64,000 nt of DNA from Aporrectodea caliginosa (taxonomy: Eukaryota > Annelida > Clitellata > Crassiclitellata > Lumbricidae). Location of the stretch: positions 230,001-294,000 of the forward strand of contig JACEVL010000807.1 of NCBI GenBank assembly GCA_020284085.1, read 5' to 3'. Positions 19,566 to 61,921 of the stretch are shown here, in pieces (within the stretch, counting starts at the first letter, position 1; each line of letters opens with the position of its first letter). Made by a program: the position numbers and the translations under genes. The notes beneath the pieces were generated by a model. The model had not been told where the DNA came from. It made no database searches and saw only the letters and a list, made by a program, of their open reading frames with translations.

Positions 19566-21443
19566 ATGCCAACACTCTACAAGATGTCGGACGAGAAGAA
19601 CAACGAGATTCCAGTTGTGGTTGCAGAGGTAGGATAACTAACGACTCATTAAAGAAATTACGCTTAAAATCGCATCTTTATTTGCAATCATATTTAGAAT
19701 AGCTATAGACCTAGGCATAATTAAAAATTAAAAGTTAATTTTATAATTTAGCGATAGCCTACATTCACTGCAAGAAACTATAATTTTCTTACTATAAATA
19801 CTTTAATTTGTAAATATAAACTACCTAATTGTAAAGGTTTCAAAAGTCATAATCAATTAAGTCTATAAACTTCAGCAAGCAGTTTTTCACAGGAGTCACT
19901 GTACTCCGCTATTATCTTAAACTAACAGTTTCACAAATTGACCAAGATGCTCTATTAATAATCTTCGTTTATTGCTTCAAACTGACACACCGCAGTTTGA
20001 TTACAAGTCATAAAATGAACGGATGATCACAAGTTATTACAGGAGTCGAATTTAACTGCAATGCAGCCGTGCAAGACGCCCATCACGTCCTACATCTCAT
20101 TTTACCAATGCGCCATCTGGCGAATGAAAGGCTGAGTCGACCTTTGGGAGGGTAACGGGAATCTATCCCGTGTCCATGCTGGCGTTCTGCTCTTCGTGCC
20201 ATAGTGCTGCCATTACCCTAAACCTTCAAAATACAATAGAACGACTTGAACATAATTTAACCTAGCAATCGAGATGTTTTGTAATGCACTAAATGCACTG
20301 TTGCAAATACCTGTAATTATACGAGTATAACGGGATCTGCAAGACTGCAATGAAGTAGAACGTTGACTGTCCTTTCACAAATGTTAAATAATTGCTAATT
20401 CTAGATGGCTTCATCTCCCGCAAAGCCGCGCAACACCAAGAAGTACGTGATCATCGCAGTTAGTGGCATTTTGGCAGCAGCGATCATTCTGACAGCCATC
20501 TTGGTCGGCATGTACATGTTCACCCAAGCGCAGAAGGATATCATCCAGGTAAACTTTCAGTGTTATTTGACATCATAGCATGAAATTCAAACCTAGTCGA
20601 TATAGAATAGCCAATTTGTAGTTTAAAAAGTTGAAGAATAGTTTTTATTACAGAAAGATAGTTTTCTAATAATTAACATGCATGGAAGGGATTTTTCTTT
20701 GATATCTAAATTCTAAAATTGTGATACCCTTACGATAATAATTTCAAAACTGTTAACAGTACACTCTGAAAATGAGCGAAAACATGAAGCAAGACGTCAG
20801 CAGTGACCCGAATGAAAACGTCGTTCAGTACCACATTTCAAACCCAGCTCAAGAGACTTGGATCGTCAACGACTTCGGCAAGGTTAGAAAACGTTCCTCA
20901 TTCGATGTATTCTGCCTCTAGAATCATTAGCGCCTAAATTAATTAACGAACAATTCGATTTTTACCATAAAATTCAGGTTGAAATTGATCATTTAGACTT
21001 CATCGGACCTTCAGGTTACTGAAACTCCGACCTAGGGGGACTTCTCGAAATTTCCTCAACTTTTAATAACACATTTCTTCCGAATAATTATGAGATGATC
21101 AGTTCAGCATTCCGATACGTTTCGAATTCTGTTTTAATAATAGTCTTACAGAATATCTTTTAGAAGTACATGAGCAAAAATTATGTATATTCTTCATTAA
21201 CCAATTGCTAAGCGCACTTTGGTGTGCATACATATAATAGCAAACACGTGGCGCATTGGATAACATCTGGCACACAGACCGAGAGTTACCGAGTTCGAGC
21301 CCCCGTTGGGCGGATATGTTTGTAGGCTGCTATTAGCGCCGTTGTATTGCAAGCTGTCTGTTCTGTTAGTAGTTAAGATTTAAATTGCATAACATGTAAA
21401 TGTACAGCGCAGTGCGTTTGTCAGGCGCTTATTAAAGAAAAGA

Positions 21444-21476
<33 letters not shown>

Positions 21477-23291
21477 AAAGTGTATAATATCCTAACAATA
21501 AACGCTTGGCGCATCAGGCTGTCGGCTGAAAGATTTTGCAGTCATGGGTACGGGGACGGAGGGAGGACCGCATGTATGTACACCTACATGCATGTATCTA
21601 CGGTACTGTTTGGCGCACTTTTGAACCGCTCAAGACGCATCGGCCAAAGTAACAAATGACTGGTAAAATTGTAATTGTAACTGCAAAGTTATATAGTGCC
21701 ATGTCTCAGAGAGTCTCATCAGTGGGGCGACTCAGTTCCTAATAGGCCTATCACATTGCTTCGCAACCTCGAACTGTTTGAATTGCCCAACGTAATATCA
21801 TCGGAAGACGACCTGTTCGAGTTCGAGGCCGCTATCGCATGGTTTTTCGTTTTGCAGGACATTCAAGTAATGAAGATCAAGAGTGATGGCAAGACCAACT
21901 GCTTCGTGTCACCACTGAACAGGACCAACTTACTCGATCCTGCAAAGATCACTGGTCCCGAGTCACCAGTAAAGTCTATCTCTCTATCTTTTACTTCAAG
22001 CTAGAATAACATAACGATGTCCCATCGTTTAATTCAGTAAGGCGACCTCTGCGGCGCTGCAAGCACTTTCATGCACATAGATGGGATCTATATGGGTTCT
22101 GTACGAGTCCCATTCGATAATGTAGGTCCTACATGGACATCATATATATATATATAATATATATACACACGTATATATATATGCGGGCAGGGACGTTAGG
22201 TCTGATTCTTATGTAACCTTCTGAAATAAATCTCTGTTAAAGTTGCTAAATCTAAAATAAAAAGCAATATTTTTAGTTGTTTGCTTAAGATATGGAAATG
22301 GTAATTCCAAATTCATTCAGCGCAACTTCAAAAGAGACTCATCAGAGGCTCTCTATACAATATGATATCTACACAATTTGTCCTTGTATTTCATCAAAAA
22401 GTCACTAACAGTTTGCATTGTAACTCATGTTATTAAACAACGCAACTAAGTTTATGTGCTAATGTTGAGTTTCTCATGTTTAGGACGTGAACGAAGCCGT
22501 ATCCCTGACGTACCGTGCATCTGATACTCCGATAAGCGATACTTCATTCCTTGGAAAGACTGCCAGAGAAACGTGCAAAGGAGTGTCCGTCTACTGGCTT
22601 TATCCTTCCTGCCTTGACAGAGAAACCGGCCCTAAAACAAATATGACTCGTGAGTTTGACCGGGTTTTTCTATACCACAGAAACAACTAGTAGTAGTAGT
22701 GATCGTATCTGAATTAATGAAGTAATACAAGTCAAATTCGATAATCTGTTTTATTACTTGTTTTATCCGTAATGTATTTTATACAATAATCTAAAACAAC
22801 ATTGAAACTTCACTATGGAATTCTATAAATGTCTATCAGCGTGTGTATTCTTAATAAGCTTACAATTTCACCTTAGAAACTTCATTTCTAAATTTGATAA
22901 TCGTGCTTGAATTTAGATTTTAGGATGTGGTTTCGAAAAAGCAATTTGAAACTTCAATTAGAGTATCTTATTTGTAGAAATGGATCACCCAAAATCAAAA
23001 CGCCAGACGACAATTGACTACGCCCCATACTACCTCAGAGCCGATACGTACTACTACAGCTACAATACTGGTACCGCTTACTGGATACCATGCTTCACCG
23101 GTTGCTGTAGGAAGATCTGCGCCTGCGCTATCAGCTTTTCTGCCTACCTTTCCGGTGGAAGGATGTACTGCAGCTGGATCACCTACACCTGTCCACCTGT
23201 ACTCTATGGGAAACTATCGGACACCTGTACCAACGGTCCGAGAGGTCTCACGTGTCCCACTCGCTACCCAGCAACTCCACCAACCTGTTAG
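19566..23291 (+). CDS. BRICHOS-domain type II membrane precursor, copy 1
   Basis: Six coding exons: 19566-19628, 20405-20548, 20760-20882, 21858-21968, 22484-22649, 22978-23291; 306 residues; GT-AG introns, phases 0,0,0,0,1. Exon 2 encodes a basic stretch (KPRNTKKY) and a hydrophobic helix at about residues 35-60 with no cleavable signal peptide, so the C-terminus faces the lumen. Exons 3-5 (about 70-203) form a BRICHOS-like domain: Asp107 in WIVNDFGK, Cys125 in TNCFV and Cys178 in TCKGVSVYW, plus Cys190. N-glycosylation sequons are at Asn131 and Asn200. KSKR (208-211) is a likely convertase site; it would release Gln212-Cys306 (95 residues, Tyr-rich start, 10 Cys). Order of parts and CC..C with SGGRMYC resemble chondromodulin/tenomodulin (family knowledge). 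The start is the first ATG of the conserved frame; ATGs at 20405 and 22980 are Val codons in copy 4, so they are not starts. Function of the peptide is unknown. Confidence 0.88.
19952..20225 (-). mobile_element. SINE family 1 in intron 1 of copy 1
   Basis: A minus-strand SINE-1 copy interrupts intron 1. The sister introns read GATGCTCTATAG then TTCaAAaA-like sequence without it (copy 2 about 32279-32300, copy 3 about 47072-47095). This accounts for most of the extra intron length here (776 nt against 499 and 503). Confidence 0.75.
21241..21475 (+). mobile_element. SINE family 2 in intron 3 of copy 1
   Basis: tRNA head with GTGGCGCATTGGATAACATC (A box) and GAGTTCGAGCC (B box), a body with GTAGGCTGCTATTAGCGCC, and a 3' end TTTGTCAGGCGCTTATTAAA followed by a TTA run. 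Other copies: 17055-17185 (3' part, +) and 56016-56238 (-). Sister introns in copies 2 and 3 lack it. Confidence 0.8.
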
Positions 23292-23487
23292 AATGTTACA
23301 GGATTTTCTATGCACCGAAATTATGCTAAATATGAACTAATTAATTATTGTGCATGTGATCTTGCGTGATTCTTATACCAGGAATATCAACGAGTAGTTT
23401 TTTCCAAATCAGACACTACATAACGTTACTAATACAATGTAGTCGCTTTATTATACACATAGGGCCTAGAAGCATTTATTTAAACGG

Positions 23488-23597
23488 AATAAAATGAACT
23501 TTTGGATGGAACATGGTTGATTGTACTAATTGTTGAGCTTTTTAAATTTGCATTTAACGCTTGTTCAAAGTATAAACGATTTGGTTTCAAAAATAAA
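23488..23597 (+). terminator. Candidate poly(A) signals of copy 1
   Basis: AATAAA occurs at 23488-23493 and 23592-23597, 200-300 nt after the stop. The second sits in TTTCAAAAATAAATTATCAC, conserved after copies 2 (37028-37033) and 3 (51107-51112), so it is the better candidate. Confidence 0.5.
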
Positions 23598-23896
23598 TTA
23601 TCACTCTAATCTGCAGTTTGTTTGAGATCTCTTAGTCTGAAATTCATCCTGTACAATATCTTTAAAACGCCTCGAATTAGTGTATGTTGAAGAAGCGATA
23701 TACAAATGTTTGAGTACTAGGCCTACTACAATTGAGGTAATTTATTCCAGTAACAAGTCAAAAAGTTAATTGTCATAGCCTACTAGTTGAAGTAGAAGAT
23801 TTTATAAACTTCAGTTTGGAATATCCACTTAAATGGAAAGTGCAATAGAAAAACTGATCAAGAAGCTAGGTTGAGATGTTGCTTTAAGTAGACACG

Positions 23897-23992
23897 GTCG
23901 CTTTTGTTTGCCTAAATCTCTGGCACACCTTTCTGGCGCATATGGCTTACATGCACCTGAAAGAGTACCAGTCATGGGCAAACAAAAGACGG
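23897..23992. repeat. Conserved short inverted repeat downstream of copy 1
   Basis: CGCTTTTGTTTGCC at about 23899-23912 pairs with GGGCAAACAAAAGACG at about 23977-23991. The same arrangement occurs after copy 2 (37448-37548), where both arms are kept although the spacer has drifted. It may be a small foldback repeat or an RNA hairpin. Confidence 0.5.
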
Positions 23993-24097
23993 GTTAACAA
24001 CTTCTATTGAGATTTTGACTTCTCATGCTATTCGGGAAGTTTGACACACAAAATTTGAATCTCCCAGATCAAAATTAGGACACCAAATGCGCATCAA

Positions 24098-24275: not shown

Positions 24276-24361
24276 TGCTTGCGTGCGTGCTCCTTCTTTT
24301 CAGATACTGGCCTGTGCCGCCCAGCAGCGGACCCTGCAGACCATGCATAACTACGCTACTG

Positions 24362-24475: not shown

Positions 24476-24551
24476 TATGTATTTTAGTATTAAAAACTGT
24501 AACGAACGTCTTCACTACAGAGAGTTTGAAGTAGGCTAATCATGATCAGGG

Positions 24552-25105
24552 TCCTTAGTCCTTAGTCCTTCGCTTGCAGGACTTCACATGGGGCAACGCA
24601 GTTTTTCCATTCTTCCCTGTCCTCCACCACCTCGACAGCATCCTCCACCGTCAACTCCAGACATCTAAGATCTTCTCGAACAGTAGGCCTAACTGTTCCC
24701 ATCAAGTTCTTTCTTGGCCTTCCTCTTCCGCGCTTCCCCTCCGGAGTCCAGATGATCACTTGCCTGGCTCATCTATCATTATTCATTCTGGCCACGTGTC
24801 CCATCCAGTTCAGTCTTTTCTTTTTAATGATGTTCTCTAGTTTATTTTGTACTGTTGTTACTCTGATGGTTTTATTTGTGATCTTTTCTTTCCAAGAGAT
24901 GTACAGAATTCTTCTTTGCCTCCTGTGATGTGCTGCCTCCAGTTTTTTCCTATTTGCTACCGTCATTGGCCACGTCTCTGCTCCATACATCAGGGTACTC
25001 CTCACTACGGCCTCATGTAACCGGATCTTGATCTTCACGCTGCATCCATTGCTTTTCCATATCTTCTCCAGTCTCCCAAAAGCCGCATTTGCCTTCCCAA
25101 TACGT
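24552..25105 (-). mobile_element. LINE reverse transcriptase C-terminal remnant
   Basis: The minus strand translates to the usual end of a non-LTR retrotransposon ORF2: KANAAFGRLEKIW, LMYGAETWPMT, RRQRRILYISWKEKITN, LNWMGHVARMNNDR, then in another frame VIIWTPEGKRGRGRPRKNLM and DREEWKNCVAPCE. A TAG stop and a frame change between the WMGHVARM and WTPEGKRGRGRPRK parts (about 24758-24772) break it. This is a dead 5'-truncated copy of a different family from the others here. Confidence 0.82.
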
Positions 25106-25394
25106 AGGGGAGGACGGGGCTTGTTGTCTCAATTTTCACTTTTTTGGTTCTGCACACCGTGTCAATAAAGTTATTACCAATCTTAAGAATGTACTGAGAA
25201 GGTATACTATTCCTTGACCAATAAAAGGCAAAAATAATGACCAATATTAAAAAACACTATTTAATCAAATAGTTTAAATATGAGCCCCAACATGTGACAA
25301 CTTGCCCCCACATCGGGGTATGTTTTCTCGCAGATGGGGGCATGTTGTCACAAATAATATCTGACACCGAAGAATAAAACTAGCAATAGCAGGA

Positions 25395-31900: not shown

Positions 31901-34900
31901 ATGCCAACACTCTACAAGATGTCGGACGAGAAGAACGCCGAGATTCCAGTTGTGGTTACAGAGGTAGGATAACTAACTAATCATAATAGGAATTATGCTT
32001 AAAATCACAATTTTATTTGCAGTCATTTTAAACATAGCTATTGAGTATAGCCCTATGCAAAATTTGAAACAAAAATTAAAATTTCTCAGTTAGCGAAATT
32101 TTCACTGCAAGAACGTATAATTTGTTAACTATATGCTTCAATTTCTAACCATAAGATTTCCTAATTATAAACGTTTCAAAAGTCATAATTGATCAAGTCT
32201 ATAAACTCCAGCAAAGCAGTTTCTTCCACAGGAGACTGTACTCTGCTATTATCTAAAAAAGTATTATAACTTGACCAAGATGCTCTATAGCTTCCAAATA
32301 CCACAGAACAACTGCTAACATCATTTAACTTAGCAACTGAGATATTTTGGTAAGGCGCTAAATGCAGTCGCAAGAACTTATATATGAGTACAATGGTTTC
32401 TACAAAGAAGTGGAACGTTGATTGGTCTTCATAAAATTAGTGTTAAATCTTGCTAATTCTAGATGGCTTCATCTCCTGCAAAGCCGCGCAAAACCAAGAA
32501 GTACGTGATCATCGCAGTTAGTGGCATTTTGGCTGCAGCGATCATTCTGACAGCCATCTTGGTCGGCATGTACATGTTCACCCAAGCGCAGAAGGATATC
32601 ATCCAGGTAAACTTTCTAATTAGTGTGATTTGACATCATAGCATGAAATTCGAACATGGTTGATTTGGAACAGTCAATTTGTAGTTTAAAAAGTTTAAGC
32701 ATAGGTTTAATTACAGAAAGAAAGCTTTTTATATAATTTAACATGCATATCAAAAGGAAGTTTATGTGATCATCTAACTTGTAAATTGTCAATTTGTTAC
32801 GATTATAATTTCAAAACTGTCAACAGTACACTCTGAAAATGAGCGAAAACATGAAGCAAGACGTGAGCAGCGACCCGAATGAAAACGTCGTTCAGTACCA
32901 CATTTCAAACCCAGCTCAAGAGACTTGGATCGTTAACGACTTCGGCAAGGTTAGAAAACGTTCCTCATTGCTCGTTGCTCACTGCCTAAACGTCAACGCC
33001 TAAACTAATTAATAAACAATTCGACTTTAACCTTCAAATTCATGCTGAAATTGATCATTTAGGCTTAGCTAACATCGAACATTCATTTCTTCCAAATATG
33101 AGTAGAAAATTCTAAAAGGCTTAAAATTTTGTTTAGGGGCCGTTCACATATTATATAACGCTCAAGGGGTAGGTGGGTGGGTTCCTGTTTTGTTAGCGTT
33201 ATAGGTTTATGGTGGGTGGGGTAGGTTCAAGGTTTCGTTATATAACAAACTTTTTCAGCTGATGCTATTTTGCTTGTTTGTCTGACCATTTACTTTCACT
33301 GTAATATTTTAATAAATATTCTTCATTACTAATTGTGTTTTAGTTACTTACTCACTCAGTGCTTTGCATAATATGGGATGTGGCTAGCTGGTAGGTAGCA
33401 GCGCTCTATTTCAAACTATTCGAGGGTGGCCATATTGTTCATTTAGGACGCATTCTCAATCAAGAAATCAATAAATTTCGTTTAATATTCAAAGTATCAC
33501 ACTGACAGGTCGCAACTTGTGACAAGTATAAGGTAACAAAATTGTCTTTAATAGCTCTGAGAGTTAGCCATGAATTAATTGGTTTTTATACCATTGACTC
33601 AGTTCTGACAGCTACAAGTTGAAAATAAGATAATTAGAATAGTGGTGTTGTAAGTTACGGCAGCTTAAATGAGGTGATGAATGAGCGAATGAGGTGATAT
33701 TATATGCTGTATTAGTTAGCTTTATTAATGCATCTTGCATTTCTAGTATTAAACGATTAATTTGCTAATTTGCATTAGTCTAGTAACTACATTTAATACA
33801 GTAGGCCTACAAACTTTTAACATAATCCAGTCACTATTAAAGTGCTATTAACTAACATTGTATTGTTATAAATCCTCGACAATATCACCTTGACAGTATG
33901 ATAATAATAATAATGAAAGTTTCCAGTTGTGTAATACAATAAGGTCCACTGTATGTCTTTGAATGTGCTTATAGACTGGGGGTAGGGGGTAGGAAGCATA
34001 TCTGTTATATAATATAGGGGTGGGGGGGTCACAGCTGCTGTTATGTAACGTTATTAGGGGGGGGTATAGGCAAAAAATTGAGATTTTTGCGTTATATAAT
34101 ATGTGAACGGCCCCTTAGTAATAGGCCTAGTCTTACAGGATAACTTTTGGAAACAAGCAAGTAATTAACTATATTCCATATTAACCAATTGCCAATCGCA
34201 CTTTGGTGTAGAGACATCTAAGAAACACCGTTAAAATGTGTATGACATTCTAACAATAAATGTTTTGAGCAGCAGACTGTCGGCTGGGGCATTATGCAGT
34301 CATGGGCACAAGGACGGAGGAAGTAGTGGGTGGGTTTGGTTGGAGGTAGTAGTTGGTGTACGTCGTGGCCCGGGTCCGTCAAAATTCTAAGAAAAGCTGG
34401 ACCACATGCGTATTGTATTGTATTTGTTAATTTATATAGCGCCACTCACAGCAGTGACTGTTCAGTAGCGCTCCCAGTGCGAGAACCCTATAAGGAAGAA
34501 GAAGGTTTTGAGGAGGGAGAGGGCTGTAGGAAGAGACCCAGAAAGAATGGTAACACGTAAAGAGGAAGGAAGGGCATTCCACAGGAAGGGCCCAATAGTG
34601 GCAAAAGATCTAGTTTGGGCCATAGTGGTCCTAACTCGTGGAACAACAAGAGTATGCCTGACCAAGGAGCAGAGAGGTCGATGAGAAACTGAAGAGAGAG
34701 AGGGTAGCGAATTTGATCCTTATGATTTAGGAACAATGCCCAATTTGGATTTAAGGATTAGGACAAGAACTTTGAACTGAATTTGGGCTGTGAGAGGAAG
34801 CCAGTGCAATTGATTGATCATAAACGAGGAGATATGGGAGAATTTAGGAAGGCGAGCAATCAATCTGGCAGCAGCATTTAGAACTGATTAGATAGGGGAA

Positions 34901-36700
34901 AGGCGGACCTTGAAAAGGCCCATAAGAACAGAATTGCCATAGTCAATTCTGGAACATGCGTGTACATGCACTATTGTTTGGCGCACTTGTGAACCGCTCA
35001 AGTAACAAATGACTGGTAAAATTGTAATTGTAACAGCAAATTTATATAGCGACATGTCTCAGAGAGACTTATCGGTGGGGCGACTCAGTTACTAAAAGGC
35101 CTATCACATTGCTTCGCAACCTCAAACTGTTTGAATTGCCCAAAATAATATCATCAGAAGATGACCAGCATTCTGTCTGTCAGAGTTCTTGGCTGCTATC
35201 GCATGGTTTTTCGTCTTGCAGGACATTCAAGTAATGAAGATCAAGAGTGCTGGCAAGACGAACTGTTTCATGTCACCTTTGAACAGGACCAACTTACTCG
35301 ATCCTACAAAGATCAATGGTCCTGAGTCACCAGTAAGTCTGTCTTTATCTTTTACTTCAAGATAAGCTTGGATAACATAACGATGTGGTGTCATCTTTTA
35401 CTTCAGTACGGCGATCTTGCCGGCTATGCCAGCGCTTTCATGGATATTAGATGGGACCCATATGGGCTGCCTGCGGGTCCCATGTGGTAATGTGGGTCCA
35501 ATTTGGACTTCATATGTATATGAATATAATATATATTATAGGGGCCTATATATACATGCTGGCAGCGACCTTAGGTCTGATTCTACATTATGTAGTGTTC
35601 TTAATTAAATCTCAGTTGAAGATACTAAAGTTCAAATAAATGGTAATATTTTTAATTGTTTGCTTAAGATCTGGTAATGGTAGACCTAATTGCAAATCTA
35701 TTTAGAGCCACTTCAAGAGAGACTTATCAGAGGCGCTCTATACAATGTCTAGACAATTTCTTCGTGTATTTAATCTAAAAGTCACTCTTTTGCATTCTTG
35801 CTCGTGTTATTCAATAATTCAACAACGCAACTACGTCCATGTTGTCCTACAATTTGTACTATTTGTTCATGTACTATATGTACTGTTTCTCATGCTTAGG
35901 ACGTAAACGAAGCCGTAACCCTGACGTACCGTGCATCTGATACTCCGATAAGCGATATTTCATTTCTGGGAAAGACTGCCAAAGAAATGTGCAAAGGAGT
36001 ATCAGTTTATTGGCTCTATCCTTCCTGTCTTGACAGAGAATCCGGCCAAAACAAGAATATGACTCGTGAGTGTGACCAGGGTTTTCTACCACAGAAACAA
36101 CTAGTAGTAGCAGTGATCATATCTGAATTAATGAAGTATTGAAAGTTATATTCAATAATCAGTTTTATTACTTATTTTATCCGTAATGTACTTCATACAA
36201 TGGTTTAAAACAACGTTGAAGTACTACAGTAATCTATAATGTCTATCTTCGTGAATATTGTTAATAAGTTCACAATTTCGCCTCATAAGTTTTATTTGTA
36301 AATTTGATAGTCGTGCTTGAATTTGAATTTTAAAATGTGGTTTATAAAAGCAATTTGGAACTTCAATTAGAGACTCTGATTTGTAGAAATGGATCAACCA
36401 AAATCAAAACGCCAAACGACGATTGACTACTCTCCATACTACGTCAGAGCCGATACGTACTACTACAGCTACAATACTGGTACCGCTTACTGGATACCAT
36501 GCATCACCGGTTGCTGCAGGAAGATCTGCGCCTGTGCTATCGACTATTATGCCTACGTTTCCGGTGGAAGAATGTACTGCAGCTGGATCACCTACACCTG
36601 TCCACCTGTACTCTATGGGAAACTATCGGACACCTGCACCAACGGTCCGAGTGGTCTCACGTGTCCCACTCGCTACCCAGCAACTCCACCAACCTGTTAG
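31901..36700 (+). CDS. BRICHOS-domain type II membrane precursor, copy 2
   Basis: Exons: 31901-31963, 32463-32606, 32827-32949, 35222-35332, 35900-36065, 36387-36700; 306 residues; all GT-AG. Domain order as in copy 1: membrane helix in exon 2, BRICHOS-like exons 3-5 (Asp in WIVNDFGK, Cys in TNCFM and MCKGVSVYW), KSKR site and a 95-residue Cys/Tyr-rich peptide with 10 Cys. It is closest to copy 1: the second half of the peptide (SGGRMYC to the stop) differs at one residue, while the first half shows changes such as AIDYYAYV for AISFSAYL. Intron 3 is 2272 nt because it holds a Harbinger-type MITE and a LINE. Reading frame and splice sites are intact, so it is probably functional. Confidence 0.88.
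33136..34114. mobile_element. PIF/Harbinger-type MITE in intron 3 of copy 2
   Basis: 979 bp with perfect 26-bp inverted ends (33136-33161 and 34089-34114; GGGGCCGTTCACATATTATA outward). Flanked by TTA (33133-33135 and 34115-34117). Copies 1 and 3 carry the empty site ATTCTGTTTxAATAATAGTC, confirming a 3-bp TTA duplication. No transposase frame. TTA duplication plus GGG-starting ends point to PIF/Harbinger (family knowledge). The interior includes the 7026-7145 retroposon block. Confidence 0.9.
34412..34953 (-). mobile_element. 5'-truncated CR1/L2-like LINE in intron 3 of copy 2
   Basis: Minus-strand translation gives the usual RT tail: LNAAARLIARLPKFSHI, INQLHWLPL, IQFKVLVLILKSK, then the TMAQTRSFATIGPFLWNALP block. 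There are several stops/frameshifts. The 3' end GGCGCTATATAAATTAACAA plus ATACAATACA tail lies at the left. An 8-bp duplication ACATGCGT flanks it (34404-34411, 34954-34961). Copy 3 has the empty site (CGCATGCGTGAACATG). This is the longest coding piece of the family in the window. Confidence 0.88.
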
Positions 36701-41783: not shown

Positions 41784-42305
41784 ATGAACAGATCCCAAAG
41801 ATACTGTCGTCTTTGCGGCTGACATTGCCAACGTAACAAGTGTCCGAATTGAGCGACTGTCTGTGTCTCACTGTGCACGACATTCAATTAATGAAGATCA
41901 AGACTGCTGGCAAGACCAACTGCTTCATTTCTGCGTTGAACAGGACCAACTCACTCGATCCTGCAAAGATCAAAGGGGCCGAGTCACCAGTTAGTCAATC
42001 GCTCTATCTTTACTTCAAGCTAGAATAACATAACGATGTCCAAGCTTTCACTTCAGCATAGCGACCTCTGCCGCTCAGCCAGCATTTCATGGATATGGAT
42101 TAGAGTGGATTCATATGTAGGCTACTCTATACACGAACTCCATGCGGCGATGTAGATCCTAATTATTACCTTCGTAATTATATATATATGCTGGCAGGAA
42201 CTTTGCGTTTGATTCGTATATATACTGTGGAGTCCTTAATCGACTCTCAGTTGAAGACACTGAAGGTAAAATAAATTGAAATTTGTATTGTGTGCTTAAG
42301 ATCTA
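41784..42305 (+). pseudogene. Orphan exon 4 of a BRICHOS paralogue
   Basis: 41879-41989 (111 nt) matches exon 4 of the four genes (MKIKTAGKTNCFISALNRTN), open and the same length. The acceptor AG is AC (41877-41878) while the donor GT is kept (GTTAGT). About 90 nt before it match copy 4 intron 3 (GTAACAAGTGTCCGAATTGA), and about 300 nt after it match intron 4 of copies 1-3. No other exons lie nearby, so it cannot be a working gene. It is a relic of a fifth copy or a partial duplication. Confidence 0.85.
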
Positions 42306-46701: not shown

Positions 46702-49700
46702 ATGCCAACACTCTACAAGATGTCGGACGAGAAGAACAACGAGATTCCAGTCGTGGTCACAGAGGTAGGATAACTAACGAATCATGAAAGAAATTACGCT
46801 TAAAATCGCATCTTTATTTGCAGTAATTTTTAGAATAGCCTACGAGAGATATAAAAAAAACAGTTAATTTAAAAAAATTAAACGATACTTTCACTGCAAG
46901 AAACTATTATAATTGCTGTCTATAATACTTCAATTTGTGAGTGTTAAATTCCGTATTTTGTTACCGTTTCAAAAGTCATAGTCGATTAAGTTTATAAACT
47001 TCAATAAGCTGTTTTCTCAAAAGAGTCAGTACTCCGCTATAATCTGAAAATATTAGTATTATAACTTAACCAAGATGCTCTATAGATTCAAAAATATCAC
47101 AGAACGACTTTAACATCATTTAACCGAGCAACAGAGATGTTTTGTAAGGGTCTAAATGCAGTTGCGAGAACGTAGGCCTATATACGAGTATAACGGGATC
47201 TGCAATGAAGTAGAAATTGACTGGCCATTCATTCCCTTTCACAAATGTTAAATCTTGCTAATTCTAGATGGCGTCATCTCCCGCAAAGCCGCGCAAAACC
47301 AAGAAGTACGTGATCATCGCAGTTAGTGGCATTTTGGCTGCAGCGATCATTCTGGCGGCCATCTTGGTCGGCATGTACATGTTCACCCAAGCGCAGAAGG
47401 ATATCATCCAGGTAAACTTTCACTTGATTTGTCAATTTTATAGCATTAAATTCGAACTTGGTTATTTTAGAATAGCCAATTTGTAGTTTAAAAATTTGTA
47501 GCATAGTTTTAATTTACAGAAAGATTGCTTTTTATAAATTAGCATGCTTGCAAAGGAAGTTTCTCTGATATCTAAATCGTAAATTGTGATACTCTTACGA
47601 TAATAATTTTAAAACTGTCAACAGTACACTCTGAAAATGAGCGAAAACATGAAGCAAGACGTCAGCAGTGACCCGAATGAAAACGTCGTTCAGTACCACA
47701 TCTCAAACCCAGCTCAAGAGACTTGGATCGTCAACGACTTCGGCAAGGTTAGAAAACGTTACTCATTGCTCGTTGCTCACTATCTTAGCGTTAACGCCTA
47801 AACTAATGAATGAACAATTCGACTTTAACCTTCAAATTCATGTTGAAATGTTTAATTTAGGCTTAGCTAACATCGGACCTTCATTTCTCCCGAATATGAC
47901 AATAACATTCCGATACGCTTCAAATTCTGTTTAATAATAGTCTTAAAGGATACCTTTTGCAAACAAGACAGTAATTAAGTATATTCTTTATTAACCAATT
48001 GCCAATCGCGCTTTGGTGTATTATAGACATCTGATAGGACTAAACACGGCTCAAAAGTGTATGACGTTCTAACAATAAATGTTTCGCGCATTAGGCTGAC
48101 GGCAGAGGGGATTATGCGGTCACGGGCACGGGGTCGGAGGCAGCAGTAAGTGGATTTGCTTGGAAGTAGGCCTAGTAGTTGGTGCAGGACGTGGCCCGGG
48201 TCCGTCAAAATTCTAAGAACAGTCTTCACAAGGACCGCATGCGTGAACATGTTTTAATGGTTTGGCGCACTTGTAAACCGCTCAAGACGCATCGGCCAAA
48301 GTAACAAATGGCTGGTAGAATTATAATTATTGCAAACAGCAGATTTGTATAGCGCCACGTCTAAGAGAGTCTCATCAGTGGGGCGACTCAGTTCCTAATA
48401 GGCCTATCACATTGCTTCGCAACCGCAAACTGTTTGAATTGCCCAACATAATATGATCGGAAGACGACCAGTATTTTGTCTGTTAGAGTTCGAGGCAGCA
48501 ATCGCATGGTTTTTCTCGTTTTGCAGGACATGCAAGTAATGAAGATCAAGAGTGATGGCAAGACCAACTGTTTCGTGTCACCGTTGAACAGGACCAACTT
48601 ACTCGATCCTGCAAAGATCACTGGTCCCGAGTCACCAGTAAGTCTAGCTCTCTATCGTTTACTCCAAGCCAGAATAACATGTGCCATCTTTAACTTCAGC
48701 ACGGCGATCTTTTGCCGGGTCTTCCAGCACTTTCAGGAAATTAGATGGGACCCATATGAACTCTATACTGGTTCCATGCGGAAATGTAGGTCCTATATGG
48801 ACTTCGTGTATATATACATGCTGGCCGGGACTTTAGGTCTGATTCTTATGTAGTGTCCTTGATTAAATATTAGACCAACATCTATCTTGGAAAGATCACA
48901 TAGAAGCTATTTCCTCTAAAATAGCTAAGAATGTAGGAATTCTAAAACGAGCTTCATACCTACTGCCACCCCATGTTCGGTTAACCTCTATTACACCCTC
49001 ATCTATCCCTACTTCACTTATTGCAATATAATATGGGCTTCTACTTATAAATCCAATCTACAAAGGCTGACCATTCTGCAAAAACGAGCTATCCGTTGCG
49101 TGGCTGGTGTTCCTTACGGTTCTCATACTAGTCAACTATTCCTAGAATTTAAGTTATTAAAAATTGAACAAATTAGGAAGGCACAGATTGGTGAATTTAT
49201 GTATCGTTACGAGCATAATTTGTTACCAGTAATTTATAGACAACTCTTCGTCCGTGCCTCTGAAATTCATTCTTACTCTACAAAAAATTCTAAATTATAT
49301 CGACAACCTTTTGCTCATACAAACACTCGGTTATTTTCTATCAGATTTGCAGGGGCTAACATTTGGAATAGTATACCGTTATCTATTCGTCAACTACCTG
49401 GTCTGCGTATTTTTAAGAAAAGACTACGCCTTTACCTTATTCATCAAAGTACTTGCATTCTTATTTTCTTTTTTATTGGGTGTGTTAGTTAAGTGTTAGT
49501 TAAGTGTTAGTTAAGTTATGTTAGTAATTTTGTTTAATAATTTAGCCATTTTCTGGTCATCAAAGTTTTCGTGTAATCACAAGAACCGACTGTCATGCAT
49601 TATTTCTGTTCTTCACAATTATTAGGTGGCCCTATTAGCGGGATTCTTCATCCCTTCTGGGTCTCCTCCTTGGTATCCACAACTGATGTAATTTACTGTG

Positions 49701-50814
49701 TTTATTGTGCTATAATTGTACTATGCTGGATCAGGAAATAAACTGATTTGATTTGATTTGATTTGATTTGAAATCTCAGTCGAAGATACTGAAATTCAAA
49801 TAAATAGCAAAATTTTGAATTGTTTGTTTAATATCCTTTAATAATGGTTATGGCAAATTCAGATAGCGCCACTTCAAAAGAAAGGCTCTTCAGAAGCGCT
49901 CTATACAATATCTAAACAATTTGTTCCTGTAGGCTATAGCCTATTTCACAAAAAGTCACTCACTTGCATTCTACTAGCTCATGTTATTAAATAACGCAAA
50001 TGAGTCCATGTGCTAATGTTGAGTTTCTCATGTTTAGGACGTGAACGAAGCCGTATCCCTGACGTACCGTGCATCTGATACTCCGATAAGCGATACTTCC
50101 TTCCTGGGAAAGACTGCCACAGAAACGTGCAAAGGAGTGTCAATTTATTGGCTCTATCCTCACTGCCTGGATAAAGAAATCGGTCTAGACACAAATATGA
50201 CTCGTGAGTATGACCGGATTTTTCTACCACAGAAACAACTAGTAGTAGTCGTGATCATTATATAAATTAATGAAGTAATGAATATGAAATTCGATAATCT
50301 ATTTAATTACTTGTTTTATCCGTAATGTTTTTTATATAATAGTTTAAAATAACGTTATAATACTAGGTCAATCTTAATGAGCTCACAATTTCGAATTAGA
50401 CATTTTATTTGTAAATTTGACGATACTGCCTGAATTCGGATTTTAAAATGTTGTTTTGATAAATCAATTTGAAACTTCAATTAGAGTCTCTGATTTGTAG
50501 AAATGGATCAACCAAAATCAAAACGTCAGACAACGATTGACTACTCCCCATACTATCTCAGAACTGATTCGTACTACTACAGCTACAATACTCGTACCTC
50601 CTACTGGGTCCCATGCTTCACCGGTTGCTGCAGGAAGATCTGCGCCTGTGCTGTCAGCTTTTCTGCCTACCTTTGCGGTGGAAGGATGTACTGCAGCTGG
50701 ATCACCTACACCTGTCCACCTGTACTCTACTCGACACTGTCGGACACCTGTGCCAACGGTCCGAGAGGTCTCATTTGTCCCAATCGCTACCCAACATATC
50801 CACCAACCTGTTAG
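46702..50814 (+). CDS. BRICHOS-domain type II membrane precursor, copy 3
   Basis: Exons: 46702-46764, 47268-47411, 47625-47747, 48527-48637, 50038-50203, 50501-50814; 306 residues; GT-AG throughout. Same architecture as copies 1 and 2. It differs in the released peptide: TSYWVPC for TAYWIPC, YSTLSDTC for YGKLSDTC, and an extra Cys (YLCGGR for YLSGGR, residue 261), giving an odd number (11) of cysteines. That Cys could allow a disulfide-linked dimer or re-pairing (inference). Intron 4 is 1400 nt because it holds a LINE 3' end. Intact frame and splice sites. Confidence 0.88.
48869..49770 (+). mobile_element. 5'-truncated LINE in intron 4 of copy 3
   Basis: 902 bp. Broken frames match an RT C-terminus in order: DHIEAISSKIAKNVGIL-like start, then LLQKRAIRCVAGVPYGSHTS-like, FLEFKLLKIEQIRKAQIGEF, NTRLFSIRFAGANIWNSIPL, FKKRLRLYL. 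A 3' UTR follows, ending AATAAACTGATTTGATTTGA (pentanucleotide tail). AAAT flanks it (48865-48868, 49771-49774). Copy 2 has the empty site (CTTAATTAAATCTCAGTTGA). A few residues of the first two blocks are read across frame breaks, so treat them as approximate. Confidence 0.88.
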
Positions 50815-52830: not shown

Positions 52831-52838
52831 AATATAGA

Positions 52839-54555: not shown

Positions 54556-54569
54556 AATATAGATTCCTT

Positions 54570-55310: not shown

Positions 55311-55318
55311 TATATATA

Positions 55319-56238: not shown

Positions 56239-56239
56239 T

Positions 56240-57715
56240 AAAAGTAACGCTTTGCTAACACTTCACATGTCCATAGACTGCACTAGGAATCTTAGGTAGG
56301 CTCTGGTAATCGTAAAACTGTCTACTTCAGTCCATTTACAAGCGATAACTCCGAAAGTGTAGCGCATAAAAGTTTACCTAAGAATTTATGATGCGCCTAT
56401 CCAGAACCTATCATAGACGACATGGAATAAGTTATAACGTGTCTGCAGTTGTTGAAGGCAATAGCGACCAATGCCTTGTAGGCTTTCAATATGTTGTGGT
56501 ACTACATTTTTAAGATCAATAAAATACCTTTTAAGAATTTATCAGAACGGCAGATCTGAAATGGGAAGACCTAGATACGAGGCTGTTAATAAAATAAGCG
56601 GACTCGCTCTCAAACCGGGCTCAGATCTTCATTTTGAAATCTCTTAACAGCACCTGCCAAACGGTGCAACGCCGTTGAATAAGCTGGTGCCCTGTGCTGA
56701 GCTACAGAGTAGCGCTTTATATTGGAGTTTGCGAGGCATTGAAAGTCATGAAAGCTAGAAAGCGACTATAGGCTCAAGCCCCTTGCAATAAATAAGATGC
56801 TATTCTCGCCACGCTTCGAGTCGCAACAACTCTATCAACAATCACCCGAGCCAAAAAGGGGACTTCCTAGGGCAGCGCTTCCCGAACTTTTCAGTGTCAC
56901 GGACCGGCAGGAATTTTATTCCACTGCAGGAGGACCGGTTCCAAATTTCCTAAATATTTCTCTTTTTCGTTTTCGATCACCTAAATTCCTCAAAATGTAT
57001 TAAAATTGATTATTTAAATGCACCATTTAGCCAATTCTATGACTCTATTGTCCTTTAGATGTTAGCTTAAAAAGTGTTTTATGACTTTTAAAAATATAAT
57101 AGCCATTTCTTCATTCCGAGACAATTTGACCAGTTCTTGATTCACTTTGTGGACCGGCAACTGAGGGCTCGCGGACTGGCAACGGTCCGCGGACCACCAC
57201 CTCTTTGGGAAGCAATGTCCTAGAGCATTGCAGACCTCGATAGGCCTACACTTAAAGTCTAGATAGCGTTGCAACCATGTCTGTCAAAGAACTCCAGCTC
57301 CCAGACGTTTACCTCACGCCGAAACCGATCTAACAAGTCGGCTCTTACGGTATTTATTTTATAAATGCCGATGTGAAGCTGGTCTCATTGCTCGCAGCGA
57401 TTGTTTAAGGCTAAGAACTTTCAGAGCTTCACATTGACCACTGTCTATAAGGAAGGTAATAAAGGGAGTGCGGTGCACTGTGCACCCTACACAGGATCAA
57501 AGAGTTGTCCAAATAAATGGCTAACTTTAAGACAAGACCTATGGCACAACTAAACATTTCTCAATAAGAAATAACGAAGCTCTACAAGTAGTTAGAGCCA
57601 TCGACCATCGCGCCTTTCCCAACTTCTTTCTATAATCTAGCAACCTAATCAGGAGCATGCGGCTCAATCTATTACTCCTAATAGAGGATTTTCACACAAA
57701 ATTGAAGTACCACGT
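56240..57715. other. Intergenic, short repeat only
   Basis: A member of the AATAAGCTGGTGCCCTGTGC repeat lies at 56675-56750. No supported exon on either strand. Confidence 0.5.
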
Positions 57716-57721
57716 CTCAGA

Positions 57722-57860
57722 GAATCCATGCATCCATACATGCATGTATGCATACATCATACATGCTTATCTAAATACGTAAGCAAACATAAATACATAC
57801 ATACATACACTCATACAAACACATAGATACGTAGCCTATATACATATGTATACATACGTA
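57722..57860. repeat. Degenerate (ATAC)n
   Basis: CATACATGCATGTATGCATACA and related units followed by ACATACATACATACACTC. Confidence 0.75.
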
Positions 57861-57884
57861 CATCATAGTTTCTGCTGGTAACTA

Positions 57885-58050
57885 AGAGTCCCTAATTAGT
57901 GGGACTTAGGTCCCTTCGGGTCTCCGCATTGTAACCATTATTGGTGACAACGCCCATTACTGAGCATTAGTTCTGAATTGTGAACATGGAACCACTTGAC
58001 TTATGGAATGTTCAGTCTGACTAATAAACTTATGGTTATGGTTATACATG
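57885..58050 (+). mobile_element. LINE 3' UTR with (TTATGG)n tail
   Basis: TTAGTGGGACTTAGGTCCCTTCGGGTCTCC-type block ending AATAAACTTATGGTTATGGTTAT (57890-58045). Same layout as 7745-7910 and the end of 48869-49770, with a different tail unit. Confidence 0.6.
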
Positions 58051-58275
58051 CATGCATAAAAAATAATACATACTATTCGTGCACCATGATGCGAATAAAG
58101 TCAGGCCAAAAGCTTTGTCAAGCAAAAGTTACTAGGAAGTAAAAGTTACAGTTCCTCATGACTTTTATATATTTTGTGGTTCTTCTTTTGTACGCCATTA
58201 TGCTGACAAAACATAAGCGGTAGTGCATAACATCTTAACTCAGCATCGGGAAATTTCGTATTACAGAAGAAAACG

Positions 58276-58390
58276 GTTTTTCCTATTCTTTGTTGCACCA
58301 AGTACGAATGGCGAAGAAACTTCCTTCTTGAACAGAATAAAAGACCGACTCCGGGCGGCAAAGGACATCGCCAGAACCGATTGATCTACA
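58276..58390 (+). promoter_or_regulatory. Core promoter of copy 4
   Basis: TATA-like AATAAAA at 58336-58342 within AACAGAATAAAAGACCGACT. Identity to copy 2 begins at about GTTTTTCCTATTC (58275) and holds through the 5' UTR, while sequence further upstream is unrelated. Confidence 0.65.
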
Positions 58391-58456
58391 GGTGTTTCCT
58401 CCTGCTGTATGGACAACCGATCTTCTTCAACTGCAGAAAGTCTTGCAAGGAAGTTA

Positions 58457-61400
58457 ATGCCAACACTCTACAAGATGTCGGACGAGAAGAACAACGAGAT
58501 TCCAGTTGTGGTCGCAGAGGTAACAAAATTATGGATATTTCACTTGACTGTTCATGACTTTTATAGATTGGTTATTGGCCTATACGTATGAATCTCGATG
58601 AACTATGCCTAGAGGCAAAGTTCACTGTTTTATTAAAAGTCCTTGAAACACTGATTCTATTGCATAGTAAATGTTCTGTTTGCTATTAGATTTTACTCTT
58701 AATCGTCTAATATCTAAAGTTACGACCATATATCCCAAATTTAAAGCTTTAAGCTCTACATTAAATTGATAAACACTGGTATTTCTAAAGAAAATATTTC
58801 ACTTAGTATTTTCAACTTAAAATGAGATAGGCCTAATTAGAACTAAAGTTACATAACTACGTCGCATTCTGTATCACATTCTGTTCTTATAGACGTCAGG
58901 GATGGGCAGTATCTGAAATTACGCAATTAAAATTACTTGAAATTGCACAATTTGTAATTTGTTATTTTGTAATTGAATTACATTTCCCATGTATTTTGTA
59001 ATTTGAAATTACATTTCATGTCCCAAAGTAATTTGTAATTTGTAATTCAATTACATTTTTCCAAGTACTTTGCCCATCCCTGATAGACGTCGAGAGTCTT
59101 GGCCTAATTGCCTTTGTAAGTTAAGCAATGCATCTTTCAGGTTACACCTTCGACAAGAAAGGTCCGTAACACCAAGAAGAACGTGATAATCGCAGTCAGT
59201 GGCATTTTGGCCGTAGCAATCATTCTGACAGCCATCTTGGTCGGCATGTACATGTTCACAGAAGCGCAGAAGGATATCATTCAGGTAGGCCTAAACACAA
59301 AGTATTTGTGACCTATCATTGACCATTTTGATTGTTCTGTTCTACTTTTTAATCTCGCCCAACTTATGCTGCCACTTAATGCCACACTCCAAAATAAATA
59401 GAAATGACTGGTGACTAAAATTCTTAGAACTATCGCAGTTGTTCTCTGCTTGATTAGTAAGCGGTCAGTGACGAAAGGGAAACGAAAGTTCCTTCTGCAT
59501 TTATCGTCATTGTCTTCTTCAGTGTCTGATAAACCTGCGAAACGTCCAGAATTCGCATACTGATAATTGGCAGTCAACTCCGAATGACTGCTCAGGCTAC
59601 GACTAACTCCTCTTGTCTAATTGCTTACAACGATATTAGGTTAAGTTGTTCCTAGTTTATGAGTAGGCCTACTTAGTGGCTCATAATATTGATTCATATA
59701 CCATTACAATGGCTTTGACATTGATCCTCATAAGCGAAGTTGTCAAGTCTTAGCTATGGGAGGGTTTTGCCTGAATCTATTATCCAAGCCACTAAACTTA
59801 GTTCTGCTACACTAGCTCGGCACACAATTGCAATTCCGCAAAAGACAGTTCAAGAAACATTTTGAGCTTATCTTAAGTTGCACCTTCTTATATCTGTTAG
59901 ATAGCCATTTCAGCATCCTTGTAAGATTCTGAAAAGGGGCTATAAAAACAGCCAGCTACATACATATATGCCTGCATACATACAAACATGATTACTTACA
60001 AACAAGCACATACAATGTTCAATATTTTTCTTGTTCTTCTCTTGTATTTCAAATGAACTGGTTTTTTTTTCATTTACTCTTTCACTGATGATTTCAGTTA
60101 CCGTACAAAAACCATTTTGCCTCTTGTTGTTCAACAGTACACTCTGAAGATGAGCGAAAACATGAAACAAGATGTGACTAGTGACCCAAATGAAAATGTC
60201 GTTCAGTACCACATTTCAAACCCAGCTCAAGAGACCTGGATCGTCAACGACTTCGGCAAGGTTAGACAAACTCTTTTTAGAGGAATTATATTGAGATGCC
60301 TAACTCTAAGAAAACACAAATTTTCCAACTTAAATCTAAATGTAATATAAATCTTAACTTTATTTGGCAGCAACCCAGAAACACACAATAAACTACATCA
60401 CCAGGAAGAAAAATAAAACAGAAGTTTATGCATAGAATTCATTGAGAAACACGTAGGCCTACCACATTCTGTCTGTTGCAGAACTGATTCCCGACAGCTG
60501 CATATCCAAACTATGCTACTGAAACGTCCTGAAAATCGATAACTCACTCTAATTATTATTACTAATGCTACTACAAGTACTACTACTGCCATTGTTATTA
60601 TTAGGCCTACATGAAGATATACAAAGCACAAGCTAATATAACTAAATACATTGCAAATGCACACTGTTGAGCCATGTAGGCTTAACCATGCCGCAGCCTA
60701 GTACTTTATATTGGGGTATAAAGATGCTGTAGTCTTTGCGACAGACGTTATCACCGTAACAAGCGTCCGAATTGAGCGGATGTCTATGCTTCACTTTGCA
60801 GGATCTTCAAGTAATGAAAGTGAAGAGTGATGGCAAGACCAACTGCTTCGTGTCACCGTTGAACAAGACCAACTTACTCGATCCAGCAAAGATCAATGGT
60901 CCCGAGTCACCAGTAAGTCTAATTCAGTATGTTTACTCGATTATAACTTCCAAAAGTTTTGCACTTGAGATGCCCTGCATCAAATCTCAGACGAAAGTAA
61001 AGTTCAGAAATAATGGCAATTCTGTAAGTTCTCTTTAGGACTTAGACGACAGATGTCTGTACATGAAAGTCCAATTAGTAATTGGTTAATAAAGAATATA
61101 CTTGTATAGTCTACTTACATGTTTTCCCATGCTAAAATCTCATTCGAGTTATACAAAAACTTAAATAATGTCGTGCTTCATTACTGAGGTTTTTTGAATT
61201 GCTTAGGACGTGAATGAAGCCGTATCCTTGACTTACCTTGCCTCTGATACTCCGGTAAGCGATACTTCATTCCTGGGAAAGACCGCCAAAGCAATGTGCA
61301 AAGGAGTGTCTGTCTACTGGCTCTATCCTCACTGCACTGACAAAAACAGCGGCAAAGACACAAATATGACTGGTGAGTAGCCTAGTCTTGAAATTGAAAA

Positions 61401-61921
61401 TTTGAAAGAAAAAAGAAATTTTTCCTTGTATTAGAAACTAGTTCGCATGAACTTTAATTAAATTTAAATCTGAGTCTTTTAACCTTGGTGTAAAATCACA
61501 TTGAATTCAGTTCGGTGTATTCAACTGAATAGAGTTTTGAATTTAAATTTAGAATCTGAGTTTACGGACATAAATTTTAATATTAATCGGAGTCGCTTAA
61601 TTTCAATTTGTAGAAGTGGATCATCCAAAATCAAAGCGGCAGACTGCAGTCGACTACTCTCCATACTACATCAAGACTTACATTTTCTACACCAGCCCCT
61701 ATACTCGTGCCTCCTACTGGGTCCCATGCTTCACCGGTTGCTGTAGGAAGATCTGCGCCTGTTCCATCTACTACAATGTCTACCTTTCCGGTGGAAGATT
61801 GTACTGCTACTGGATCGCCTACAGATGTGATGCTGTGCGTACACTCTGGGACTCGTGCACCAGTGGCCCGAGAGGTCTCAGCTGTCCCAATCGCTACCCA
61901 GTGTATACGCCAACCTGCTAG
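58457..61921 (+). CDS. BRICHOS-domain type II membrane precursor, copy 4 (diverged)
   Basis: Exons: 58457-58519, 59141-59284, 60138-60260, 60802-60912, 61207-61372, 61614-61921; 304 residues; GT-AG, phases as in the others. An in-frame upstream ATG at 58409, absent from copies 1-3, could add 16 residues. Exon 2 begins with Val (VTPSTRKVRN), and exon 6 has EVDHPKSKR where the others have QMD. Exon 3 (start of BRICHOS) differs from copy 1 at one residue, while the released 93-residue peptide differs at roughly a third of positions yet keeps all 10 cysteines and KSKR. Introns do not align with copies 1-3. This pattern suggests the oldest duplicate, with a constrained precursor and a faster-changing product. 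Confidence 0.87.
58897..59082. mobile_element. hAT-type MITE in intron 1 of copy 4
   Basis: 186 bp; CAGGGATGGGCA to TGCCCATCCCTG. ATAGACGT flanks both sides (58889-58896, 59083-59090), a perfect 8-bp duplication. The interior is made of TTGTAATTTGAAATTACA-type palindromes. Same family as 29508-29697. Confidence 0.9.

Follow-up and report, generated by a model that had tools for sequence, protein, structure and literature searches.

Gene organization and the annelid BRICHOS precursors

BRICHOS proteins such as chondromodulin/tenomodulin, Bri2 and pro-SP-C possess a membrane helix, and in several of them the C-terminal part is cleaved off; chondromodulin/tenomodulin are type II proteins with a Cys-rich C-terminus. 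A conserved aspartate and two cysteines are the defining residues of the BRICHOS domain. Among annelid peptides, the alvinellacin gene is described with five introns, all of phase 0 except the last, which is of phase 1, and with the peptide encoded on the last exon; the capitellacin gene is stated to have the same number of introns at nearly the same positions (PMC4002450). Tandem duplicates are also recorded among the alvinellacin genes. HfBRI-75 and HfBRI-91 of Heteromastus filiformis have no pronounced cationic character and are given no assignable function by their source, and AmIMP1 and AmIMP2 of Arenicola marina, attributed to Stanovova et al. 2023, are reported to be Cys-rich BRICHOS-related peptides that were named integral membrane proteins.

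We analysed a stretch of 64,000 nucleotides from the annelid Aporrectodea caliginosa, here called the window (Table 1). The first-pass annotation had described four intact six-exon genes that agree in the lengths of the first five coding exons and in intron phase, and the gene models bear this out: exons 1 to 5 measure 63, 144, 123, 111 and 166 bases in all four genes, the phases are uniformly 0,0,0,0,1, and GT-AG borders flank 20 of 20 introns. The last coding exon spans 314 bases in genes 1 to 3 and 308 in gene 4, which is the most divergent of the four. The predicted exon joins are supported by homologous transcript-like contigs that read through them in a single frame, for example P0001, whose 1290-base contig encodes 305 aa with 84% identity to gene 4.

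The phases are exactly those stated for the alvinellacin gene, tandem duplicates occur in both, and preproalvinellacin and preprocapitellacin likewise have six exons, a BRICHOS domain in the pro-region and the mature peptide on the last exon. The agreement in phases and in the placement of the peptide on the last exon therefore points to precursors of the BRICHOS-AMP type. The mature peptide of Alvinella and Capitella is a 22-residue hairpin with two disulfides, in contrast to the long Cys-rich tail found here, and the membrane helix of the window proteins is preceded by about 33 residues instead of a signal peptide. Furthermore, the mature part of the window genes changes faster than the BRICHOS domain, whereas the reverse is described for Alvinella.

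TATA-like boxes occupy the same place in genes 1, 2 and 4 and lie at -108 in gene 3, in each case inside a block of roughly 150 bases that is conserved. A Rel/NF-kB-type site was found in the 600 upstream bases of none of the four genes, which says little because the chance expectation is also low (<=0.10), and a scan of the same regions for GATA and C/EBP motifs gave nothing useful. The relic exon between genes 2 and 3 has an open frame, and no other family exon was found near it.

Table 1. Positions of the genes and other features within the window
Feature	Position	Strand	Length	Details
TATA-like box, gene 1	19445..19452	+		121 bases 5' of ATG
Gene 1	19566..23291	+	306 aa	coding exons 19566-19628, 20405-20548, 20760-20882, 21858-21968, 22484-22649, 22978-23291
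Gene 1 exon 2	20405..20548	+		end of short basic N-terminal piece and single membrane helix (hydropathy, sequence); same exon in other genes
Gene 1 BRICHOS domain	20850..22597	+		residues 100-185, over exons 3-5, Pfam PF04089
Gene 1 predicted peptide	23004..23288	+	95 aa	after KSKR; putative cleavage
Gene 2	31901..36700	+	306 aa	coding exons 31901-31963, 32463-32606, 32827-32949, 35222-35332, 35900-36065, 36387-36700
Gene 2 predicted peptide	36413..36697	+	95 aa	putative cleavage
Relic exon 4 from an additional copy	41879-41989	+		splice acceptor AG lost
Gene 3	46702..50814	+	306 aa	coding exons 46702-46764, 47268-47411, 47625-47747, 48527-48637, 50038-50203, 50501-50814
Gene 3 predicted peptide	50527..50811	+	95 aa	11 Cys; putative cleavage
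Gene 4	58457..61921	+	304 aa	coding exons 58457-58519, 59141-59284, 60138-60260, 60802-60912, 61207-61372, 61614-61921
Gene 4 predicted peptide	61640..61918	+	93 aa	putative cleavage

Protein architecture and the predicted cut site

The layout expected of BRICHOS proteins, namely a hydrophobic region, a linker, the BRICHOS domain, a convertase site and a C-terminal client, was recovered in the window proteins, and the separate elements read earlier from the sequence held up. Hydropathy indicates one hydrophobic stretch in each protein, with 19-residue windows starting at residues 32-46, as anticipated for a single membrane helix. The BRICHOS domain covers residues 100-185 in all four. The profile search that had been proposed as a check places all four spliced proteins above the Pfam cut-off of 25 bits (37.7, 41.5, 38.0 and 41.4), and as their E-values range from 1.5e-10 to 2.4e-9 these matches are not due to chance; all 39 of the relatives that were aligned match BRICHOS as well. 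The Asp...Cys...Cys pattern corresponds to D107, C125 and C179 (P0001 numbering), which are invariant in an alignment built without P0034 and P0041 and are the same residues in the window genes. Similarity to the Bri2 chain 8rnu was weak (E 0.4), and the SP-C N-terminal propeptide profile scored 13.9-16.4 bits against these proteins, below its cut-off of 25.

The KSKR motif follows the BRICHOS domain in all four proteins, as originally noted, and more broadly 43 of 45 family members have a dibasic site placed after BRICHOS and ahead of the first tail Cys. Gln immediately follows this site in 14 of the 18 members of class A, the subfamily of the window genes, that have it. The class-A relatives P0014 and P0035 are devoid of a dibasic site, and its absence also emerges from translation of their genomic counterpart L002.

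The Cys-rich tail and its conserved domain

The tails were predicted to have 93-95 residues with 10-11 Cys and a Tyr-rich start, and this agrees with the counts in genes 1 to 4 of 10, 10, 11 and 10 Cys and of 13, 15, 14 and 15 Tyr, at lengths of 95, 95, 95 and 93 residues; three of them begin with QTTIDY and one with QTAVDY. The tail of P0001 has 21 Tyr, and in it and in the window genes about half of the tail Tyr precede the first Cys. The class-S tails of P0024 and P0028 have no Cys. The predicted tails of the four genes carry a net charge of +2 to +6; long and weakly cationic, they are unlike classical AMPs, a point against a role in defence.

Judged by their descriptions, the nearest described peptides are HfBRI-75/-91 and AmIMP1/2. 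The HfBRI proteins share with the window proteins a dibasic site followed by long tails (75 and 91 residues, 11 Cys), and differ in having N-terminal signal sequences, which are described by exclusion. The typical trait of annelid BRICHOS-AMPs, a short cationic beta-hairpin or helix, is absent from the window peptides; however, since the source lists these non-cationic 75 and 91 aa peptides as BRICHOS-related, a short cationic peptide is no strict criterion.

All 10 of the 10 Cys columns are invariant among the four genes, as against 39 of the 84 other columns. Every one of the 6 gene pairs shows a higher dN in the mature part than in the scaffold; the bootstrap supports this with at least 1993/2000 in five of them, the difference being unsupported for genes 1 and 2 (1365/2000). 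As dN/dS is below 1 among the window genes, a claim of diversifying selection would be unsupported.

The 10-Cys domain of class A is homologous to that of a distant second subfamily, class B. It has no Pfam match above the cut-off and no significant PDB match; a match of the mature profile to protein phosphatases (best E 0.27) was judged to be chance. Searching a protein database with the C-terminal region of P0001 alone gave 25 candidates and 3 matches, all previously known relatives. Because this search was confined to proteins of about 168-534 residues and failed to recover many known class-A relatives, it leaves room for a standalone 10-Cys domain. When the class-B protein P0036 was compared with the genome of the window, the best E-value among the matches listed was 3.1e-9, at scaffold exons, and no close copy was among them. 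The viral and genome contig sets yielded 37 and 115 pattern matches, respectively, none of which was confirmed as a relative.

Scaffold copies in the genome and the probable role of the peptide

The first-pass annotation had presented the locus as an array of four genes. Four intact genes are present, but the array is not limited to them and continues outside the window: on the same contig, exons 3-6 of a further long-type gene (L002) were seen upstream. On the downstream side, at L001, come exons 2-5 and, after them, a pair of long-type terminal exons. Across 27 contigs of the genome, protein queries located no fewer than 59 exon-5-like places. Twelve terminal exons in it encode the 10-Cys domain, and others encode short Cys/aromatic peptides, which follow a basic site on related scaffolds at 12 of the 22 loci examined; strict short-peptide criteria pick out 11 of these 12, and also 1 of 63 antisense control pieces. 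The clients of the scaffold range from 18-residue peptides to the 95-residue 10-Cys domain. The short siblings have charges of -3 to +3 and are therefore not strongly cationic either, a further point against a defensive function. Terminal exons are tentative at L011, L013, L014, L019 and L029, and were not found or were unconvincing at L012, L018, L021, L022 and L027, the search at L021, L022 and L027 covering about 3 kb only. A PF04089 profile search of the genome gave no match and fired in 0 of 14 controls, single exons probably being too short for it.

At L008 a scaffold of the 10-Cys clade is joined to a terminal exon encoding an acidic 50-residue peptide with 4 Cys. A derivation of this peptide from a shortened 10-Cys domain is unsupported (no blastn match, phmmer E 0.25 or worse). 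Both trees were computed without P0008 and P0015, whose scaffold is short, and the second also without L004, L014 and L019, each of which has under three exons; L021-L030 are in neither. We give an even chance to the reading that the genome uses the BRICHOS scaffold as a general export and folding platform, comparable to the cathelicidins, and that exon 6 acts in it as an independently changing module. This module would be an old, uncharacterised 10-Cys fold in the clustered arrays and short hairpin-like peptides elsewhere, with at least one 10-Cys-clade scaffold, L008, having had its terminal exon replaced by an unrelated one.

For the window genes themselves, we favor, with reasonable though not full confidence, the view that they encode type II membrane precursors belonging to the BRICHOS antimicrobial-peptide class of annelids, with a tail that would be cleaved off and most likely serves in host defence. 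The role had earlier been left open; defence now leads because the AMP-gene layout is shared and short-peptide siblings occur in the same genome. Hydropathy and the basic residues before the helix suggest that the short N-terminal piece would be cytoplasmic, with the helix anchoring the chain in the ER membrane. The lumenal BRICHOS domain probably chaperones the Cys-rich peptide that is later cut off, and would hold the Tyr/Cys-rich chain during disulfide formation (five bonds if all 10 Cys pair). Release of the peptide, as suggested by the sequence, would follow from a furin-like convertase cutting after KSKR, and the N-terminal Gln of the freed 93-95 residue disulfide-rich peptide may cyclise to pyroglutamate. 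The peptide may then act as an antimicrobial or in symbiont control, and tandem duplication, with the scaffold conserved and the last exon changing faster, could furnish a set of variants.

An unlikely alternative is that the peptide is a secreted structural or adhesive material, cross-linked into mucus, tube or cuticle, with BRICHOS blocking early aggregation. The abundance of Tyr, about half of it ahead of the first Cys, the low charge and the known fit of BRICHOS to aggregation-prone clients would suit such a material, but a Cys core conserved in class A and in distant class B alike indicates a folded domain, the tail has no sequence repeats by eye, and other copies of the scaffold carry short peptides after the same kind of cut site. 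Still less probable is a role in signalling or as a tissue factor, like that of chondromodulin/tenomodulin; the general architecture of membrane helix, BRICHOS, basic cleavage site and disulfide-rich tail is shared, but a hormone or matrix regulator would rarely have so many scaffold copies with differing terminal exons, and the tail has no significant match to a known domain in Pfam or the PDB. That the tail stays attached, so that the proteins function on the surface of coelomocytes as integral membrane proteins, is very improbable in view of the prevalent dibasic site and the Gln that usually follows it, despite the naming of AmIMP1/2 and the missing site of P0014 and P0035.

In human disease BRICHOS is studied for its action as an anti-amyloid chaperone, and dozens of scaffold copies with very different clients offer a test of what it recognises and of how one folding module can serve unrelated peptides. 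The 10-Cys domain, common to two distant subfamilies and matching no known domain or solved structure in the searches made here, is a definite candidate for expression, structural and activity studies.

Layout of the four precursor genes

Spliced at GT-AG sites, genes 1-4, the BRICHOS precursor genes of the window, encode proteins of 306, 306, 306 and 304 residues, and we recovered in each the six-exon structure described in the first-pass annotation, with equal lengths of the first five coding exons (63, 144, 123, 111 and 166 bases) and the claimed identical intron phases of 0,0,0,0,1. The last coding exon has 314 bases in genes 1-3 and 308 in gene 4. Hydropathy confirmed the single membrane helix, which follows basic residues in each protein, and the claimed BRICHOS domain was matched by Pfam at residues 100-185 with 37.7, 41.5, 38.0 and 41.4 bits (cut-off 25). 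The KSKR site and the Cys-rich tail, the predicted released peptide, were likewise borne out, the tails having 95, 95, 95 and 93 residues with 10, 10, 11 and 10 cysteines in genes 1-4. Potential N-glycosylation sites occur twice (131 and 200), in the stretch that separates the helix from the predicted cleavage site.

The long tail had no Pfam match above cut-off (best 14.7 bits, Mab-21_C with gene 4, cut-off 24.1), and nothing significant was found in NCBIfam, with the related database protein P0001 as sole query, or in the PDB. A cysteine at residue 190 (191 in P0001), just past the BRICHOS core, is invariant in A2, our alignment of the family without P0034 and P0041. As this third invariant cysteine gives the domain an odd number, it may form a disulfide with the client or with a second chain.

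Several other elements occur in the window. Intron 3 of gene 2 holds a DNA-transposon-like element of 981 bases whose ends are perfect inverted repeats of 27 bases. At 1400 bases, intron 4 of gene 3 exceeds its counterparts in the other genes (294-567); its extra stretch includes a 187-codon open frame with no Pfam match and ends in a GATTT-type repeat, which we take to resemble a LINE tail. Another open frame, with a barely sub-threshold match to DUF6451 (26.4 bits, cut-off 28), is possibly a retrotransposon remnant, and the palindrome TAGGCCTA is found in 30 copies in the whole window, with 0.9 expected from trinucleotide content.

Tail classes on a shared scaffold

Our searches recovered 41 relatives (P0001-P0041), 34 from the first protein search and 7 from a profile search, each with a precomputed BRICHOS entry; direct scans matched all 39 placed in A2. 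Because their contigs, at 0.8-3.0 kb, are shorter than each of the gene spans of genes 1-4 (3.5-4.8 kb), and most carry a single open frame from the N-terminus through every exon join to the stop, these relatives read like transcripts. P0008 and P0015 begin within exon 3. Of genes 1-4, gene 4 is the closest to P0001 (84% identity, against 74-77% for genes 1-3).

Assigned by tail, the 45 proteins (the relatives and genes 1-4) comprise class A (20 proteins including genes 1-4; long tail, 10-12 Cys), class B (7; long tail, 69-79 residues, 8-10 Cys), class S (16; short tail, 17-32 residues, without Cys in P0024 and P0028) and class C (2 with other tails). All but P0014 and P0035 (43 of 45) carry a [KR]R site ahead of the first tail Cys. 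Class B retains part of the class A core C-x2-GCC-x3-CAC, the first or fourth Cys being missing in some members. Profile-profile comparison of the two classes (20 and 7 rows) gave a score of 53.2; the highest among 30 column shuffles with Cys columns kept was 18.7, and the reversed profile scored 14.6. Class S forms one side of a branch in the scaffold tree of 43 rows (support 83/89) and in that of 60 rows with genomic loci (97/89), where the fetched loci from L009 on were pre-labelled S, including L011, L012, L013 and L018 without established tails. Neither tree has a branch that separates class A from the rest (2 and 3 changes).

Copies elsewhere in the genome

The 1.10-Gb assembly (4544 contigs) contains at least 132 exon-level matches to gene 1 (129 of 293 candidates scored). 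Three merged searches gave at least 59 distinct exon 5 places on 27 contigs, hand-picked from merged matches. Pseudogenes may be among them, and some may be uncollapsed haplotypes, since the C370 and C721 pair has equal scores. Terminal exons encoding the long domain number 12, eight on C806, the contig of the window, and four on C397. Their positions indicate that the array on C806 continues past both window ends and that a second array lies on C397. A relic exon 4 shows that at least one further copy once lay between genes 2 and 3.

Coordinates of the features (window positions unless a contig or locus is named)
Feature	Position	Strand	Remark
Gene 1	19566-23291	+	
Gene 2	31901-36700	+	
Gene 3	46702-50814	+	
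Gene 4	58457-61921	+	
Relic exon 4	41879-41989	+	between genes 2 and 3, acceptor lost
981-base element	33135-34115		
Extra stretch, gene 3 intron 4	48880-49770		
DUF6451-like open frame	24769-25128	-	
Long-domain terminal exons, window			four
Long-domain terminal exon	C806:221434		
Long-domain terminal exons	C806:304451 and 308180		
Long-domain terminal exon	C806:115996		other strand
L001	C806:299000-308900		exon 6 copies at 5440-5769 and 9166-9495 of the locus
L011	C888:2000-11000		
L013	C888:19500-28500		

The 30 loci that we fetched make up roughly half of the 59 places. Seven of them (L001-L007) are long-type; no dibasic site was seen in L002. In L001 a single exon 5 precedes two long-type exon 6 copies, between which we detected none of exons 1-5; the two copies may serve as alternative last exons, or one may be an orphan. 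L008 sits within the array on C397, and the scaffold tree places it in the class-A clade (97/92); its terminal peptide is acidic, with 50 residues and 4 Cys, and no similarity to the 10-Cys domain was detected in it.

Among the other 22 loci, 12 (L009, L010, L015, L016, L017, L020, L023, L024, L025, L026, L028, L030) yielded a short terminal exon that we consider convincing (phase-1 join and basic cut site), 5 a tentative one and 5 none, the exons being picked among several candidates per locus by score and by eye. Under a stricter rule that demands R-x-[KR]-R, two or more Cys and a pyrimidine tract, all convincing loci but L026 pass, as does 1 of 63 antisense 3-kb pieces. The 12 peptides, those of L015 and L016 being the same, have 18-35 residues, 2-8 Cys and net charges of -3 to +3. 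Compared with the 16 class-S transcript-like tails, 10 of 11 distinct short tails matched at E <=6e-5 and L025 at 0.0015, with tail and short pro-piece taken together, so that the shared pro-piece aids the match. The L025 peptide (18 residues, +3, two Cys near its ends) would resemble a one-disulfide hairpin. In the tentative terminal exons of L011 and L013, Cys pairs and triplets recur in long series, which sets them apart from the other classes of peptide.

Divergence of the tail and relation to known BRICHOS-AMP precursors

The mature part, taken from its second residue onward in the dN/dS work, had a higher dN than the scaffold in all six (non-independent) pairs of genes 1-4, with bootstrap counts of at least 1993 of 2000 in five pairs and 1365 of 2000 for genes 1-2. 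Two disjoint pairs, with changes rounded, gave a Fisher p of 0.029. The dN/dS values were 0.54-0.85 in the mature part against 0.18-0.26 in the scaffold; as they never exceed 1, we claim no positive selection. Among mature-part columns, all 10 Cys columns are invariant in genes 1-4, compared with 39 of the 84 others. Silent divergence is strongly uneven between exons of one pair (0.00 to 0.31 for genes 1-2, the exons being short); gene conversion among the copies is a possible cause.

According to PMC4002450, the genes of alvinellacin (Alvinella) and capitellacin (Capitella), antimicrobial peptides made from BRICHOS precursors (BRICHOS-AMPs), have six exons and five introns each at nearly conserved positions, the last alvinellacin intron being in phase 1 and all others in phase 0. 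Genes 1-4 share with the alvinellacin gene its intron count, its intron phases and the position of the mature peptide. PMC5431198 describes six or more alvinellacin paralogues, partly arranged in tandem, in which the AMP is monomorphic and BRICHOS diversified; unlike that reported pattern, the mature part of genes 1-4 changes faster than the scaffold.

From the layout of genes 1-4 we infer that their host is an annelid; according to PMC6780910 and PMC9756803, BRICHOS-AMPs were known solely from polychaetes. PMC10745061 reports 13 BRICHOS-related peptides of 18-91 residues from Heteromastus filiformis. Two of these, HfBRI-75 and -91, contain 11 Cys, are not markedly cationic and have AlphaFold pLDDT of 30-60; no function could be assigned to them. 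The paper also mentions AmIMP1/2 of Arenicola and likens the BRICHOS-AMP system to cathelicidins. HfBRI-75/-91 and AmIMP1/2 are the nearest described relatives we found, by description rather than sequence, and the peptide set and cathelicidin comparison mean that the platform idea is already published. In the open-licence literature, covered mostly by title, we saw no description of long Cys-rich BRICHOS genes arranged in a genomic array.

By gene layout, genes 1-4 belong to the BRICHOS-AMP precursor family, and they would work like such a precursor, with chaperone and client on one chain and a convertase site between them; their putative antimicrobial client is atypical in its size and low charge.
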